Shown: positions 7,963 through 61,873 of the stretch, in pieces | Numbering within the stretch: the first letter of the stretch is position 1 | Layout: the number at the start of each line of letters is the position of its first letter | Source of the DNA: Lacrimispora sphenoides JCM 1415 | Lineage (GTDB): Bacteria > Bacillota > Clostridia > Lachnospirales > Lachnospiraceae | Direction: 5' to 3' | DNA: 64,000 nt | NCBI RefSeq assembly: GCF_900105615.1 | Contig: NZ_LT630003.1 | Coordinates: 4,962,001-5,026,000 of the forward strand | Made by a program: the position numbers and the translations under genes | Notes under the pieces: generated by a model | What the model saw: the letters and a program-made list of their open reading frames with translations, nothing else | What the model was told of the DNA's origin: nothing | The model's database searches: none

Positions 7963-8637
7963 ATGGGGGCTCCGAAATATCAGAAAATAAAACAGGACCT
8001 TATGGAAGAAATTAAGGATGCGTCTGTCAATACCCCTATTGCATCAGAACGGGAACTGGCCAGCCGGTATAATGCAAGCCGGATGACTGTGCGCAATGCT
8101 TTAAATGAACTGGTGGAAGAGGGAGTATTATACAGAGATAAAAATAAAGGCACTTTTGTTGCAGACCAGAGGCTGATGAAAAAAAATACGTCTGCAGAGA
8201 CTTTAAATAAGCCCATGGATGATACTTATGATTATAATGTGATCTATTTCAGCTCCTGCTTTTCCGATGAAAAGGTCGCTGCCTGTCTGGAAATCGGATC
8301 TGAGGACCGGATGATCCGGATCGTGCGCTTAAACCGGAAGAATGGAAAGCCTGTAAGTGTTGAAGAAATCTATCTGATCCAAAGCCTGATCAATGACAAT
8401 GATTACAACAACTTAAATAAGCTTTTGGATCTGAAGGGGTATATTGATGAAGGATCGGTTACACAGAAGTTTCTTCCTATTATAGTGCCTGTAAAATATA
8501 TAAATCTGCTTCACGTAAAGCTGGATACTCCGATTATTATGGTTGAGAGCACCATTGTAAGCAAAAGCGGCAGCCCGGTCGTGTATATCAGAGAATTTAA
8601 CAACCCGACTGAAAAAATAATTGAGATAACCACATAA
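7963..8637 (+). CDS. GntR-family regulator with UTRA effector domain (HutC subfamily)
   Basis: The 224-residue protein has an N-terminal winged helix (APKYQKIKQDL, PIASERELASRYNASRMTVRNALNELVEEG, GTFV) and a C-terminal UTRA domain (about 75-224) that binds a small sugar phosphate. The ATG at 7963 is chosen because AGAGGTG lies 6 nt upstream; an in-frame GTG 18 nt earlier lacks a site. It is likely the repressor of this PTS operon acting at the GTGGTCTAGACCAC palindrome, relieved by a phosphorylated sugar. That pairing is inferred from subfamily and operon position. Confidence 0.88.
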   Translation: MGAPKYQKIKQDLMEEIKDASVNTPIASERELASRYNASRMTVRNALNELVEEGVLYRDKNKGTFVADQRLMKKNTSAETLNKPMDDTYDYNVIYFSSCFSDEKVAACLEIGSEDRMIRIVRLNRKNGKPVSVEEIYLIQSLINDNDYNNLNKLLDLKGYIDEGSVTQKFLPIIVPVKYINLLHVKLDTPIIMVESTIVSKSGSPVVYIREFNNPTEKIIEITT

Positions 8638-8642
8638 CAGAA

Positions 8643-8696
8643 ATACCCTGCGGGTATACCATTATGCCCTAAAAGCTGGGCAGGAAAGTGGAAAGG
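8643..8696 (+). repeat. Dispersed hairpin element, copy 1 (upstream of MupG gene)
   Basis: GTATACC at 8654, the TGCCC/GGGCA hairpin (8665-8682) and the tail GGAAAGTGGAAAGG make up the element. Here an extra ATACCC-TGC-GGGTAT hairpin (8643-8657) precedes it. The tail supplies the ribosome binding site of the gene at 8706. The internal ATG runs into TAA after two codons. Confidence 0.7.
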
Positions 8697-19595: not shown

Positions 19596-20352
19596 AGATG
19601 AAAAAACCCTTGGTAAAAGACAGTACCACATCCATTTGAATCCCGGAGATATCGGCGACTATGTTTTGCTTCCCGGCGATCCGGCCCGTTCCGACCGAGT
19701 GGCAAAATATCTGGAAGATGCCCGGCTGGTGGCCAATAACAGAGAGCACCGCACCTTTACAGGATACTATAAGGGGGTAAAGGTTTCTGTTACATCAACG
19801 GGAATGGGCTGCCCGTCAGCTGCCATTGCAGCGGAAGAGTTGATCAATATCGGCGCAAAATGCTTAATCCGCATCGGCAGCAGCGCAGCCTTACAGGAAG
19901 GGATCAAGATCGGCGATTTAATGATTTCCACCGCTTCCATGAAAAATGAAGGAACCTCCAGATTTTACGTGCCGGATTGCTTCCCTGCGGTCCCGGATTT
20001 TGACCTTACAAGAGTACTGGTCGACACGGCAAAGGATATGAAGGATGAGATTTCCGGCAGTCTCTATTATGGAATCAATGCCAGCGACGATGCGTTTTAT
20101 GGTGAAACAGAGGAATGGATCGGGAAATTATCAAAGCTTGGCTGCTTAAATGTTGAGATGGAAAGCTCCGCCCTTTATACGGTCTGCCACAGACGGAAGG
20201 TAAGAGGAGCCATGATCAGTGCCGTATCAGGCAATATTGTTACAGGCGATGTGATTTATGAAACTGAGAATACGGGATTGGCAGCAGGCTGGGATGATGA
20301 GATCCGGGTTGTTTTAGAGGCGATTTACCGCTTTGAACGGGAGAGCCGGTAA
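19582..20352 (+). CDS. Nucleoside phosphorylase (NP-I family), divergent paralogue
   Basis: The 256-residue phosphorylase has LPGDPARSDRV (about 33), STGMGCPSAA (about 73), RIGSSAAL (about 98) and VEMESSALYT (about 192). It is more like classical uridine phosphorylases than the other two enzymes here, which share SMEC rather than EMES. It overlaps the upstream permease gene by 14 nt, implying tight coupling of uptake and cleavage. The preferred base is not certain; pyrimidine nucleosides are likely. Confidence 0.88.
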   Translation: MSLNKDEKTLGKRQYHIHLNPGDIGDYVLLPGDPARSDRVAKYLEDARLVANNREHRTFTGYYKGVKVSVTSTGMGCPSAAIAAEELINIGAKCLIRIGSSAALQEGIKIGDLMISTASMKNEGTSRFYVPDCFPAVPDFDLTRVLVDTAKDMKDEISGSLYYGINASDDAFYGETEEWIGKLSKLGCLNVEMESSALYTVCHRRKVRGAMISAVSGNIVTGDVIYETENTGLAAGWDDEIRVVLEAIYRFERESR

Positions 20353-20404
20353 GGGTATCCCTCCATGCCCAAACAGCATGGGCATAAAATAGGAAAAGAC
20401 AGGA
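20353..20404 (+). repeat. Dispersed hairpin element, copy 2 (upstream of third phosphorylase)
   Basis: GGGTATCC, then ATGCCC-aaacag-CATGGGCAT, then AGGAAAAGACAGG. The hairpin is extended to GCATGGGC-like pairing. Its internal ATG (20365) is in frame with the gene at 20416, giving a false N-terminus MPKQHGHK. Confidence 0.7.
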
Positions 20405-22487: not shown

Positions 22488-22520
22488 CATAGCCAGATAA
22501 TAATAAGCCCATTTGAGGTG

Positions 22521-22595
22521 CAAGGTTAAAAGGAAAGCGTCTTTCAACCTTGAGTATGTGAATCAACTGGATATGCGAGTATATCCCCTTGATTC
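22521..22595 (+). other. Two tandem leader hairpins upstream of the glycosyltransferase
   Basis: Hairpin 1 is CAAGGTT-a-AAAG against CTTT-c-AACCTTG (22521-22552). Hairpin 2 is GAATCAA-ct-GGATAT against ATATCC-cc-TTGATTC with loop GCGAGT (22560-22595). The second ends 3 nt before the TAGGAGA ribosome binding site. The layout suggests a structured 5-prime leader; no known riboswitch class was recognised. Confidence 0.55.
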
Positions 22596-22610
22596 ATTAG
22601 GAGACAAAAT

Positions 22611-25310: not shown

Positions 25311-26651
25311 ATGTTTGAAAACAAGACAGAAAAAGTGGCGCGGGAGGAGATCCTTTCTCTGGTAAAGGAATACTGCAGCACCTACCATAATCAAAAAGAT
25401 CCTTTTAAGGAAGGAGACCGCATTTCATATGCATCCCGTGTGTATGATCATCAGGAAATGGTGAACCTGGTAGACAGCTCTCTGGAGTTCTGGCTTACAT
25501 CCGGGCGGTATACCGATGAATTCGAGAAAAAGCTGGCGGAATATTTAAAAGTCAGGTTCTGCTCCCTTGTGAATTCCGGTTCATCGGCGAATCTGCTGGC
25601 ATTTATGACCCTTACATCACCGCTTTTAAAGGAACGCCAGATAAAGCGCGGTGATGAAGTGATCACGGTGGCAGCCGGATTTCCAACTACTGTGACTCCT
25701 ATGATCCAGTATGGTGCGGTTCCCGTATTTGTGGACGTTACCATCCCCCAATATAACATTGATGTGAACATGCTTGAGGCTGCGCGCTCAGAAAAGACTA
25801 AGGCTGTCATGATCGCTCATACCCTGGGAAATCCCTTTGACCTTTCTGCGGTTAAGGCATTTTGCGACAAGCATCAGCTGTGGCTCGTAGAGGATAATTG
25901 CGATGCCCTTGGAACAACTTACACCATAAATGGGGAAGAGCGTTTCTCCGGAACCATCGGTGATATTGGAACCTCAAGCTTTTACCCGCCTCACCATATG
26001 ACAATGGGAGAGGGCGGTGCGGTTTATACGAACAACTCACTGTTAAATAAAATAATCCGTTCATTCCGTGATTGGGGCCGTGACTGTGTGTGTCCTTCCG
26101 GACGTGACAATTTATGCGGACACCGGTTTGACCGCCAGTACGGGGAGCTTCCCGTGGGCTATGATCATAAATATGTTTATTCCCATTTTGGCTACAATTT
26201 AAAAGCCACTGACATGCAGGCGGCCATCGGTTGTGCCCAGATTGATAAGTTTCCATCCTTTGTAGAGAGGCGGCGCCATAATTTCGATCGTCTTCATAAG
26301 GGCCTGGAAGAGGTTTCTCACAAGCTGATCCTTCCGGAGGCATGCCCGGACTCCAAGCCAAGCTGGTTCGGCTTTTTAATAACCTGCAAAGAAGGCGTAA
26401 GCCGGAATCAGGTGGTACAGTATGTGGAATCGAGAGGCGTTCAGACAAGGATGCTCTTTGCCGGTAATTTAACGAAACATCCATGCTTTGATCAGATGAG
26501 AGCGTCCGGAGAAGGATACCGGATCGTAGGGCAGTTAACCAATACCGACCGGATCATGGAAGATACCTTCTGGGTAGGAGTATATCCGGGAATGACTGAT
26601 GAGATGATCGATTACATGGCAAAGATCATTAAGGAGGCGCTGAGCCAATAA
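25311..26651 (+). CDS. rfbH: CDP-4-keto-6-deoxy-glucose 3-dehydrase (E1)
   Basis: The 446-residue protein is a DegT-fold, PMP-dependent dehydrase. The segment FYPPHHMTMGEGG places His228 where DegT aminotransferases have the PLP lysine, the diagnostic E1 feature. The cysteine-rich CVCPSGRDNLCG near 262-273 is consistent with the family [2Fe-2S] site. It removes the C3 hydroxyl in concert with a separate reductase (E3, RfbI/AscD). No E3 gene follows in this operon. GAAAGAGG precedes the ATG. Confidence 0.93.
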   Translation: MFENKTEKVAREEILSLVKEYCSTYHNQKDPFKEGDRISYASRVYDHQEMVNLVDSSLEFWLTSGRYTDEFEKKLAEYLKVRFCSLVNSGSSANLLAFMTLTSPLLKERQIKRGDEVITVAAGFPTTVTPMIQYGAVPVFVDVTIPQYNIDVNMLEAARSEKTKAVMIAHTLGNPFDLSAVKAFCDKHQLWLVEDNCDALGTTYTINGEERFSGTIGDIGTSSFYPPHHMTMGEGGAVYTNNSLLNKIIRSFRDWGRDCVCPSGRDNLCGHRFDRQYGELPVGYDHKYVYSHFGYNLKATDMQAAIGCAQIDKFPSFVERRRHNFDRLHKGLEEVSHKLILPEACPDSKPSWFGFLITCKEGVSRNQVVQYVESRGVQTRMLFAGNLTKHPCFDQMRASGEGYRIVGQLTNTDRIMEDTFWVGVYPGMTDEMIDYMAKIIKEALSQ

Positions 26652-26654
26652 GGG

Positions 26655-26700
26655 TTTTATACCTCTGCGCCCCAAAAGCAAGGGCAGGAAAGAGGAAACA
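26655..26700 (+). repeat. Dispersed hairpin element, copy 3a (tandem pair upstream of licD)
   Basis: TTATACC-tctgc-GCCC-caaaagcaa-GGGC-AGGAAAGAGGAAACA. The hairpin and tail match copy 3b directly downstream. It lies 3 nt after the rfbH stop codon. Confidence 0.7.
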
Positions 26701-26706
26701 CTCTGC

Positions 26707-26751
26707 AAGTATACCTTTATGCCCAGAAAACACGGGCAGGAAAGAGGAAAC
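26707..26751 (+). repeat. Dispersed hairpin element, copy 3b (directly upstream of licD)
   Basis: AAGTATACCTTTATGCCC, a short loop, then GGGCAGGAAAGAGGAAAC ending at the licD ATG. It is the second of two tandem units. Its internal ATG at 26719 is in frame with licD and would give MPRKHGQERGN ahead of the true start. Confidence 0.75.
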
Positions 26752-40456: not shown

Positions 40457-40683
40457 GAGTATTATGAAAAAAATCTTATAAGCAATTTGTATTTTATGTT
40501 TTAAGTATATCCATGAAACATGAAGAAATCATGTTGTTTGTGTAAAAGGTTTTTGAATGAAATTTAAACAAAGTATGAACGATAGGATATATATAGGACT
40601 GTATTCAAATGGGACTATACAAATATAAGAGTATTTGATAAAATATAGCCATATGCGGAATCTGACGCAATAAATACCTTATT

Positions 40684-40736
40684 GGTATACCTTTATGCCC
40701 AAAGAACATGGGCAGGAAAGCAGAAAGGGAGAAAAC
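40684..40736 (+). repeat. Dispersed hairpin element, copy 4 (upstream of cyclophilin)
   Basis: GGTATACCTTTATGCCC, a 9-nt loop, GGGCAGGAAAGCAGAAAGGG then AGAAAAC directly before the ATG. Its internal ATG at 40695 is in frame with the gene, giving a false MPKEHGQESRK extension. Confidence 0.75.
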
Positions 40737-52504: not shown

Positions 52505-52550
52505 TGTCATACTATTTTGCCCAAAAACGAGGGCGTAAGATTGCAAAAGA
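52505..52550 (+). repeat. Dispersed hairpin element, degenerate copy 5
   Basis: CATACTATTTTGCCC-aaaaacga-GGGCGTAAGATTGC keeps the TGCCC/GGGC stem but has lost the GGAAAGAGG tail and the internal ATG. It lies downstream of the 62-residue gene and 40-odd nt before the tetR promoter. Confidence 0.5.
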
Positions 52551-52592
52551 TAAACAAAACTGGAAAAATTAATTAAAAAAATATAACCTTTC

Positions 52593-61816: not shown

Positions 61817-61822
61817 GAGGAA

Positions 61823-61873
61823 CGCCCTGCAGGCAGACATTTATGTAAAAAGCAGGGCGGGAAAGAGGAAAAT
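61823..61873 (+). repeat. Dispersed hairpin element, degenerate copy 6 (upstream of murI)
   Basis: CGCCCTGC pairs with GCAGGGCG (longer than in other copies) with a 21-nt loop, followed by the family tail GGGAAAGAGGAAA just before the murI ATG. It has lost the GTATACC part. Confidence 0.5.

Follow-up and report, generated by a model that had tools for sequence, protein, structure and literature searches.

Repetitive extragenic palindromic (REP) sequences and REPINs are small palindromic extragenic repeats present in high copy number, and REP sequences carry a GTAG or CGTC tag. Minimal non-autonomous derivatives of the IS200/IS605 type have two terminal hairpins and insert strand-specifically beside a short motif, and they are not known to duplicate the target. 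Mobile elements are known to target safe sites, among them tRNA genes and terminators. Bacterial repeats resembling miniature inverted-repeat transposable elements (MITEs), such as RUP, Correia/NEMIS and ERIC, are described in PMC2229807 as about 100-200 bp long, mostly with terminal inverted repeats and with TA at their ends. According to PMC4679880, a single genome of the Beggiatoaceae holds 169 sets of TAACTGA heptamer repeats, and most sets lie a few nt before a start codon. Here we describe a 52-bp hairpin repeat of Lacrimispora sphenoides JCM 1415, found in a stretch of 64,000 nt (contig NZ_LT630003.1, positions 4,962,001 to 5,026,000; the window), where a tandem pair of units stands before licD and single units precede other genes. 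The repeat is probably non-autonomous and mobile, with an element proper of about 45 nt whose insertion at Shine-Dalgarno-like runs duplicates some 7 nt of the target.

Within the window, GGGCAGGAAAGNGGAAA with up to 3 mismatches was matched 9 times against 1.07 expected, a number reached by 0/100 shuffles, and a few of the nine are chance matches. GTATACCTTTATGCCC gave 4 matches (0.51 expected; 1/100 shuffles reaches 4) and TGCCC-N5-12-GGGCANGAAA gave 3 (0.01 expected; 0/100 shuffles). Strict and near-exact matches stand at 8643, 26707 and 40684, and the copies at 20353 and 26655 are diverged yet clear. Six matches in the window (Table 1) came from a covariance model for which 17 copies were used, and the copy at 61823 no longer has a 5' arm in its second stem. 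In the whole 5.3-Mb host genome the strict pattern matched 21 times and its reversed-pattern control 0 times; one of the 21, L015, was judged a chance match inside a gene. Among the best 150 candidates scored, the model gave at least 147 matches at E≤5, at least 142 of them with 25 bits or more. The repeat reported in an earlier note on this DNA is therefore real, abundant in the host genome, and present at the clear copies listed there and at a degenerate relative, 61823. A second degenerate relative, listed at 52505, did not hold up. A lone TTTTGCCC/GGGC remnant lies at 52505-52560, has no model match and does not precede a gene.

Each 52-bp unit consists of hairpin 1, GTATACCTTTA, a TGCCC/GGGCA hairpin with a variable loop of about 9 nt, and a purine tail. 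The family consensus is GAGGAAA - CACCC TNC GGGTATACCTTTATGCCC N9 GGGCA GGAAA - GAGGAAA with the start codon next, and the common consensus tail is GGAAAGAGGAAA. Two features are absent from the earlier plan of the unit: hairpin 1 (ACCC-3-GGGT) and the tandem period of exactly 52 bp. Exact 52-bp tandems occur at some loci, with four units at 3980153-3980367 of the host genome, and tandem units are nearly identical within some loci. Both stems covary, as the earlier note had proposed to check for its single stem. In an alignment of 54 of 103 array-final units (length 59, at least 30 bits), 94.8% of stem cells were paired against 88.7% after shuffling, and changes on both sides were seen in 6 of the 10 stem pairs, in 37 cells against 9.5 ± 2.3 shuffled. 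Longer forms (about 80-110 nt) with nested extra hairpins between both stems were seen at L199:18182 (-), at L204:1687 (+) and at 227320-227401 and 3035587-3035693 of the host genome; these could be ancestral or composite.

A same-strand start codon lay within -8 to +30 nt of the unit end for 94 of the 103 array-final units, opening reading frames of at least 100 aa in 87 cases and of 30-99 aa in 7. By the 100-aa criterion the count was 87/103, against 5/103 on the other strand, read leftwards from the left end; random positions in the same loci gave 1079/5150, with starts inside genes counted too. A codirectional long frame ended within 70 nt to the left of 56 of 103 leftmost units. No common theme joins the genes downstream. 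In the window they encode MupG, a phosphorylase-superfamily protein, LicD, a cyclophilin and an Asp/Glu racemase-family protein, and elsewhere a GTPase, a DUF4364 protein, ABC ATPases, a periplasmic binding protein, a histidine kinase, an RNA methyltransferase, Hsp70, ThiI and a class-II glutamine amidotransferase. The names EngB-like (for the GTPase gene) and purF-like, used below, are what we take these genes to be. The four gene names first assigned in the window were correct (nucleoside phosphorylase being the phosphorylase-superfamily gene), and the early description of a small, dispersed REP-like or MITE-like element, oriented with and set beside the start codons of unrelated genes, was borne out. 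None of the three outcomes listed beforehand as refuting it (few copies elsewhere, random orientation, a stem free of compensatory changes) was observed.

Within the genus, matches were present in all 25 genomes searched, from 3 to at least 91 per genome, with 3-7 each in the low-copy genomes G016, G021, G022 and G024. A first sample outside the genus gave 0/36 genomes with matches (12 of the same family, 24 from other families of the order), and the genus-restricted distribution proposed from these two counts was overturned by a wider family sample. There, 27 of 299 genomes (one per genus, the host included) had matches at E≤1e-4 per genome, with the best 18 candidates at most scored in each; the repeat is thus patchy within its bacterial family, in 26 of 298 other genera. 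In twenty stretches fetched from 15 other genera, 20 of 21 array-final units had a start codon within -8 to +30 nt, a reading frame of at least 80 aa being required. The second stem appears in the 20 copies from other genera as TGCCC/GGGCA, TGTCC/GGACA, TGCGC/GCGCA and others. Double-change cells numbered 12 in these copies against 2.0 ± 1.3 shuffled, and double-change pairs 4 against 1.6 (11/500 shuffles reach 4).

The licD site was compared across 13 genomes, and three syntenic segments, about 60 kb in total, over 11 genomes, together with two further sites. Unit counts were obtained for 15 of 48 genes in the syntenic comparison. L195_12 and L195_16 were set aside, the counts there being neighbours' elements, as was L193_10 (a weak AT-rich match); the 5 matches at L194_8 in G001 were counted as about 4, two being parts of one long unit. 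Depending on the genome, the interval between a given pair of genes held from 0 to about 4 units. Before licD there are 4 units in G001, about 2 in the host, G006, G014 and G002, and about 1 in G009. In G008 and G012 the hairpins are gone and little but the tail is left, and G003, G016, G017, G022 and G024 have no units. Empty licD orthologues carry a different Shine-Dalgarno sequence (GGAGG or GGGGG). Empty orthologous sites keep one Shine-Dalgarno-like purine run in the same place, and in filled sites the purine run can stand both to the left and to the right of the roughly 45-nt element. G016 and G022 were empty at most sites read. Empty sites in relatives, which had been named beforehand as a sign of mobility, are therefore present.

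Junctions were read at 13 loci, with L194_0 and L195_7 left out, and at 5 of these a clear two-sided duplication matched the empty site. At the purF-like gene GAGGAAA stands on both sides in G009, and the empty site of G002 reads AGAGAGGAAAGG. At the DUF4364 gene GAGGTAA is duplicated in G008 (CACTGGAGGTAACTATG in the empty G012, G016 and G022), and at the histidine-kinase gene L194_12 ATGGAAA, which includes the start codon itself, is duplicated in G006 and G002 (empty, GGTAATGGAAA). The binding-protein gene L194_11 has AAGGAAA duplicated in G001 (AAAAGGAAA in the empty G016). The RNA-methyltransferase gene has GAGGAA duplicated in G009, inside the shared stretch GGAAGAGGAA (GGAAGAGG in the empty G001). 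For 16 of the 17 genome-site pairs compared in empty relatives, the BLAST blocks of the two sides shared an overlap of 4-9 nt (purF-like gene 5/6, L197 ABC ATPase 5/5, L194_12 6/6). Within the host genome the left 7 nt agreed with the unit's own right 7 nt at 4.35 positions, against 4.05 across loci (25/5000 permutations; 46 of 64 leftmost units, the 18 with possible tandem remnants being dropped), and with all 64 units 1/2000 permutations reached the value at length 7. A left copy free to decay would weaken this signal, as would a common GAGGAAA target. A target duplication of twelve nt (the whole tail; 52 = 40 + 12) had been considered and was replaced by about 7 nt from the junction reading.

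At readable loci the last 7 nt or so of the tail look like a duplicate of the gene's own Shine-Dalgarno sequence, not a ribosome binding site supplied by the element. The earlier note had held that the element supplies that site, as a translation-initiation module. At the readable loci this is reversed: the tail is locus-specific, and at the 5 loci above its last 7 nt or so recur on the other side and resemble the Shine-Dalgarno sequence of the empty site. At loci with the consensus tail, such as licD, the two readings are indistinguishable, because decay or truncation has affected the left copy and the empty orthologues have a different Shine-Dalgarno sequence.

In the mechanism that we propose, the element proper would comprise hairpin 1, the GTATACCTTTA spacer, hairpin 2 and about 5 purine-rich nt, about 45 nt in all. 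It would insert in one orientation at Shine-Dalgarno-like purine runs, with a preferred target of about GAGGAAA, and would duplicate about 7 nt of this target; the uniform orientation would follow from the Shine-Dalgarno sequence having a strand. The right-hand duplicate would stand where the Shine-Dalgarno sequence was, so that its spacing to the start codon would be unchanged and translation initiation should change little. Slippage or recombination between the direct duplicates could then add units (52 bp being about 45 + 7), and the same route could remove the element precisely; growth or loss alike would leave one Shine-Dalgarno sequence beside the gene. L194_12 is filled in the host, G006, G014, G002 and G009 and exactly empty in G008, and as G008 is nested among filled genomes in a tree of the relatives (32 genes, 16,841 columns), a precise loss is indicated there. 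Active choice of the target, as opposed to survivorship, the slippage route and near-neutrality for translation are what we infer from these patterns.

Several observations weigh against this mechanism or limit it. That the copies lie at start codons may be due to survivorship as well as to choice of the target, and some empty sites may be precise losses, gain and loss not always being separable. No start was found by script for 9 of the 103 copies, two of which precede further unit-like sequence, and the dnaK copy (L195:600-653, genome 61599-61652) lies about 40 nt upstream at a sequence that is not a Shine-Dalgarno sequence; this copy varies among relatives. The left copy was imperfect at 2 of the 13 loci (the L197 ABC-ATPase gene, with one mismatch and one extra A, and L194_8 in G016, with one mismatch), and the left side was decayed, truncated or unclear at 6 (licD, EngB-like, dnaK, thiI, L195_11, L195_15). 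The shared stretch at the RNA-methyltransferase gene is 10 nt long. Agreement between left and right exceeds that across loci by a small margin, 0.3 of 7 positions, which is alike for lengths 5 to 12, and the length of the duplication is therefore not fixed by the permutation test. Among five covariation measures one, further pair types, was not exceptional (14 against 12.3; 50/500 shuffles). No partner transposase was found in a search that covered the Y1 family in the host genome. That genome has three Y1 (IS200-like) transposase genes (L230, L231 and L232), one with an internal stop. Exact-motif searches showed GGGTATACC, ACCTTTATGCCC and GGGCAGGAAA to be absent within about 1.5 kb of the three genes, and ATGGGCA occurred once each in L230 and L231. 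Three of four element motifs were thus absent, and an IS200/IS605 parent was set aside on these exact-motif searches around the three Y1 genes.

The element might instead spread without a transposase, copied through short homology between the purine-rich Shine-Dalgarno runs at its ends by template switching or recombination. This is in our judgement unlikely, though several observations suit it. Direct purine repeats stand at both ends, tandem units can be nearly identical, and the longer motifs of the element are not near the Y1 genes. A plasmid, phage or viral carrier was rejected, no match having been found in plasmids, phages or viral contigs in searches that used one strict pattern and one 81-base query. 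The inferred 45-nt ends have no clear inverted repeat, 1.1/5 and 3.0/8 positions matching against 1.2 and 2.0 shuffled in the 54 copies; with the element end placed at GGGCA, 3.0/5 positions match, in a TRCCC-like form. Duplications such as ATGGAAA and GAGGTAA, however, are derived from the target and unlike the usual ends of the element.

A translation-initiation module, with a Shine-Dalgarno tail of its own that is kept for giving genes a ribosome binding site, seems to us distinctly improbable. Shine-Dalgarno matches of 4 or more nt at the 94 genes lay wholly in the unit's last 12 nt at 32, straddled the unit end at 38, lay downstream of the unit at 20 and were absent at 4. The 32 favour a module, as do the common consensus tail GGAAAGAGGAAA and the licD tail that survives hairpin loss in G008 and G012, from which the tail is suggested to serve as a Shine-Dalgarno sequence once present. 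The 20 genes served from downstream speak against it, and so do locus-specific tails that are repeated on the left where readable, and empty orthologues that already own a Shine-Dalgarno sequence in the same place.

Somewhat more doubtful again is a cis-regulatory RNA leader, bound by a protein or ligand and controlling a regulon, with the repeats as its binding sites. Covarying stems and copies in the sense of the gene would suit such a leader, but the downstream genes are functionally unrelated, and the number of units before orthologous genes varies from 0 to about 4 among close relatives. No curated Rfam family matched in the window at the gathering score, and L010, L122 and L228 gave only 3 sub-threshold matches. 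An extended stem sequestering the Shine-Dalgarno sequence (CCTT with GAGG), which individual folds and a single apparent compensatory change at 8643 had suggested, was rejected on the 54 copies, with 0 double changes and pairing below shuffles. Vertical inheritance of an ancient element with lineage-specific losses only is very improbable: it would fit the matches in all 25 genus genomes and in 26 of the 298 other genera sampled in the family, and the precise loss in G008, but different relatives are filled at different loci, and genomes with 3-7 matches exist, two of them (G016 and G022) empty at most sites read.

The window also holds a copy of a second two-hairpin repeat, family II, unrelated in sequence (Table 1). 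Its tandem period is about 84 bp in G012 (L228). The host genome has 27 model matches, 7 of which are partial or opposite-strand echoes of the palindrome; among the other 20 copies, 11, counted by eye, have GGAGAC, GGAGGC or GGAGGT at the end, a tail that reads TTAGGAGAC or similar, and their best start 4-5 nt beyond it. With its shared plan and unrelated sequence, family II may point to a habit that is general in these genomes. A class of start-signal-homing elements, with at least two unrelated families in one genome, each duplicating the Shine-Dalgarno sequence so that it would survive insertion, tandem growth and excision, and perhaps moved by an undescribed mechanism linked to mRNA or single-stranded DNA at start sites, is a tentative extension about which we have considerable doubt.

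Table 1. Positions of the repeat units, their parts and the family II copy in the window
Feature	Position	Strand	Evidence
Single unit before mupG (ATG 8706)	8637..8694	+	Model, 70.5 bits
Diverged unit, hairpin 1 decayed, before phosphorylase-superfamily gene (ATG 20416)	20337..20396	+	Model, 33.5 bits
Family II copy before glycosyltransferase-like gene (ATG 22611)	22517..22605	+	
Upstream diverged unit of tandem pair before licD	26640..26698	+	Covariance model, 55.9 bits (genome 4988640-4988698)
Downstream unit of tandem pair, directly before licD (ATG 26752), both flanking 7-nt purine repeats included	26692..26750	+	Model, 79.6 bits
Hairpin 1 of downstream licD unit, ACTC-TGC-AAGT, imperfect (family consensus ACCC-TNC-GGGT)	26700..26710	+	Sequence; covariation in 54-copy alignment
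Hairpin 2 of downstream licD unit: TGCCC, 9-nt variable loop, GGGCA	26720..26738	+	Pattern count, covariation
GGAAA, putative 3' end of element proper at licD	26739..26743	+	Duplications of about 7 nt at other loci
GAGGAAA, putative right-hand target-site duplication, candidate licD Shine-Dalgarno	26744..26750	+	Inferred; tail is a relic in G008 and G012 without hairpins
Single unit before cyclophilin gene (ATG 40737)	40668..40726	+	Model, 70.2 bits
Degenerate unit before Asp/Glu racemase-family gene (ATG 61876)	61817..61871	+	Model, 31.6 bits

An ATG in hairpin 2 was in frame with the gene, with no stop, in 9 of the 60 array-final units having ATGCCC. In the window, hairpin-2 ATGs at 26719, 20365 and 40695 are in the frame of the gene. 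Such an ATG can lengthen predicted N-termini, and callers of open reading frames can add a false N-terminus there, which is a warning for annotation.

In a literature search that excluded subscription papers, no description of this element or of Shine-Dalgarno-targeted insertion was found. If the proposed mechanism is true, insertion that copies its Shine-Dalgarno target would add a new form of safe-site targeting and would account for the orientation of the insertions beside start codons. The variation of leader length and upstream hairpin number among close relatives (0 to about 4 units) offers a natural test-bed for the effect of leader structure on translation. The element shares two hairpins and strand-specific insertion by a short motif with IS200/IS605 derivatives and differs from them in its target duplication. 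With REP sequences and REPINs it shares small size, palindromic form, extragenic position and high copy number, but its consensus has no GTAG or CGTC tag, its copies lie in the sense of the gene before the start codon, and its longer motifs are not beside the three Y1 genes. Like the RUP, Correia/NEMIS and ERIC repeats as described in PMC2229807, it is short, non-coding, hairpin-forming and in high copy. Several of those repeats have a target-site duplication, and one is present here too, clear at 5 of 13 loci and with an imperfect left copy at 2 more. The element differs from them in its length of about 45 nt, the lack of clear inverted repeats, the duplication of about 7 nt of Shine-Dalgarno sequence and its single orientation at start codons. 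The BOX element of pneumococcus also varies by tandem modules; where the account in PMC3049150 gives it a boxA-boxB-boxC structure, one unit type with a 52-bp period is found here. The TAACTGA repeats, as reported in PMC4679880, likewise have unrelated downstream genes, direct tandem repeats and a patchy distribution, but only about 10% of their regions also contain a Shine-Dalgarno sequence, whereas here it is duplicated and kept. The nearest systems in kind are thus the bacterial MITE-like repeats and REP sequences; in position, the TAACTGA repeats come closest.
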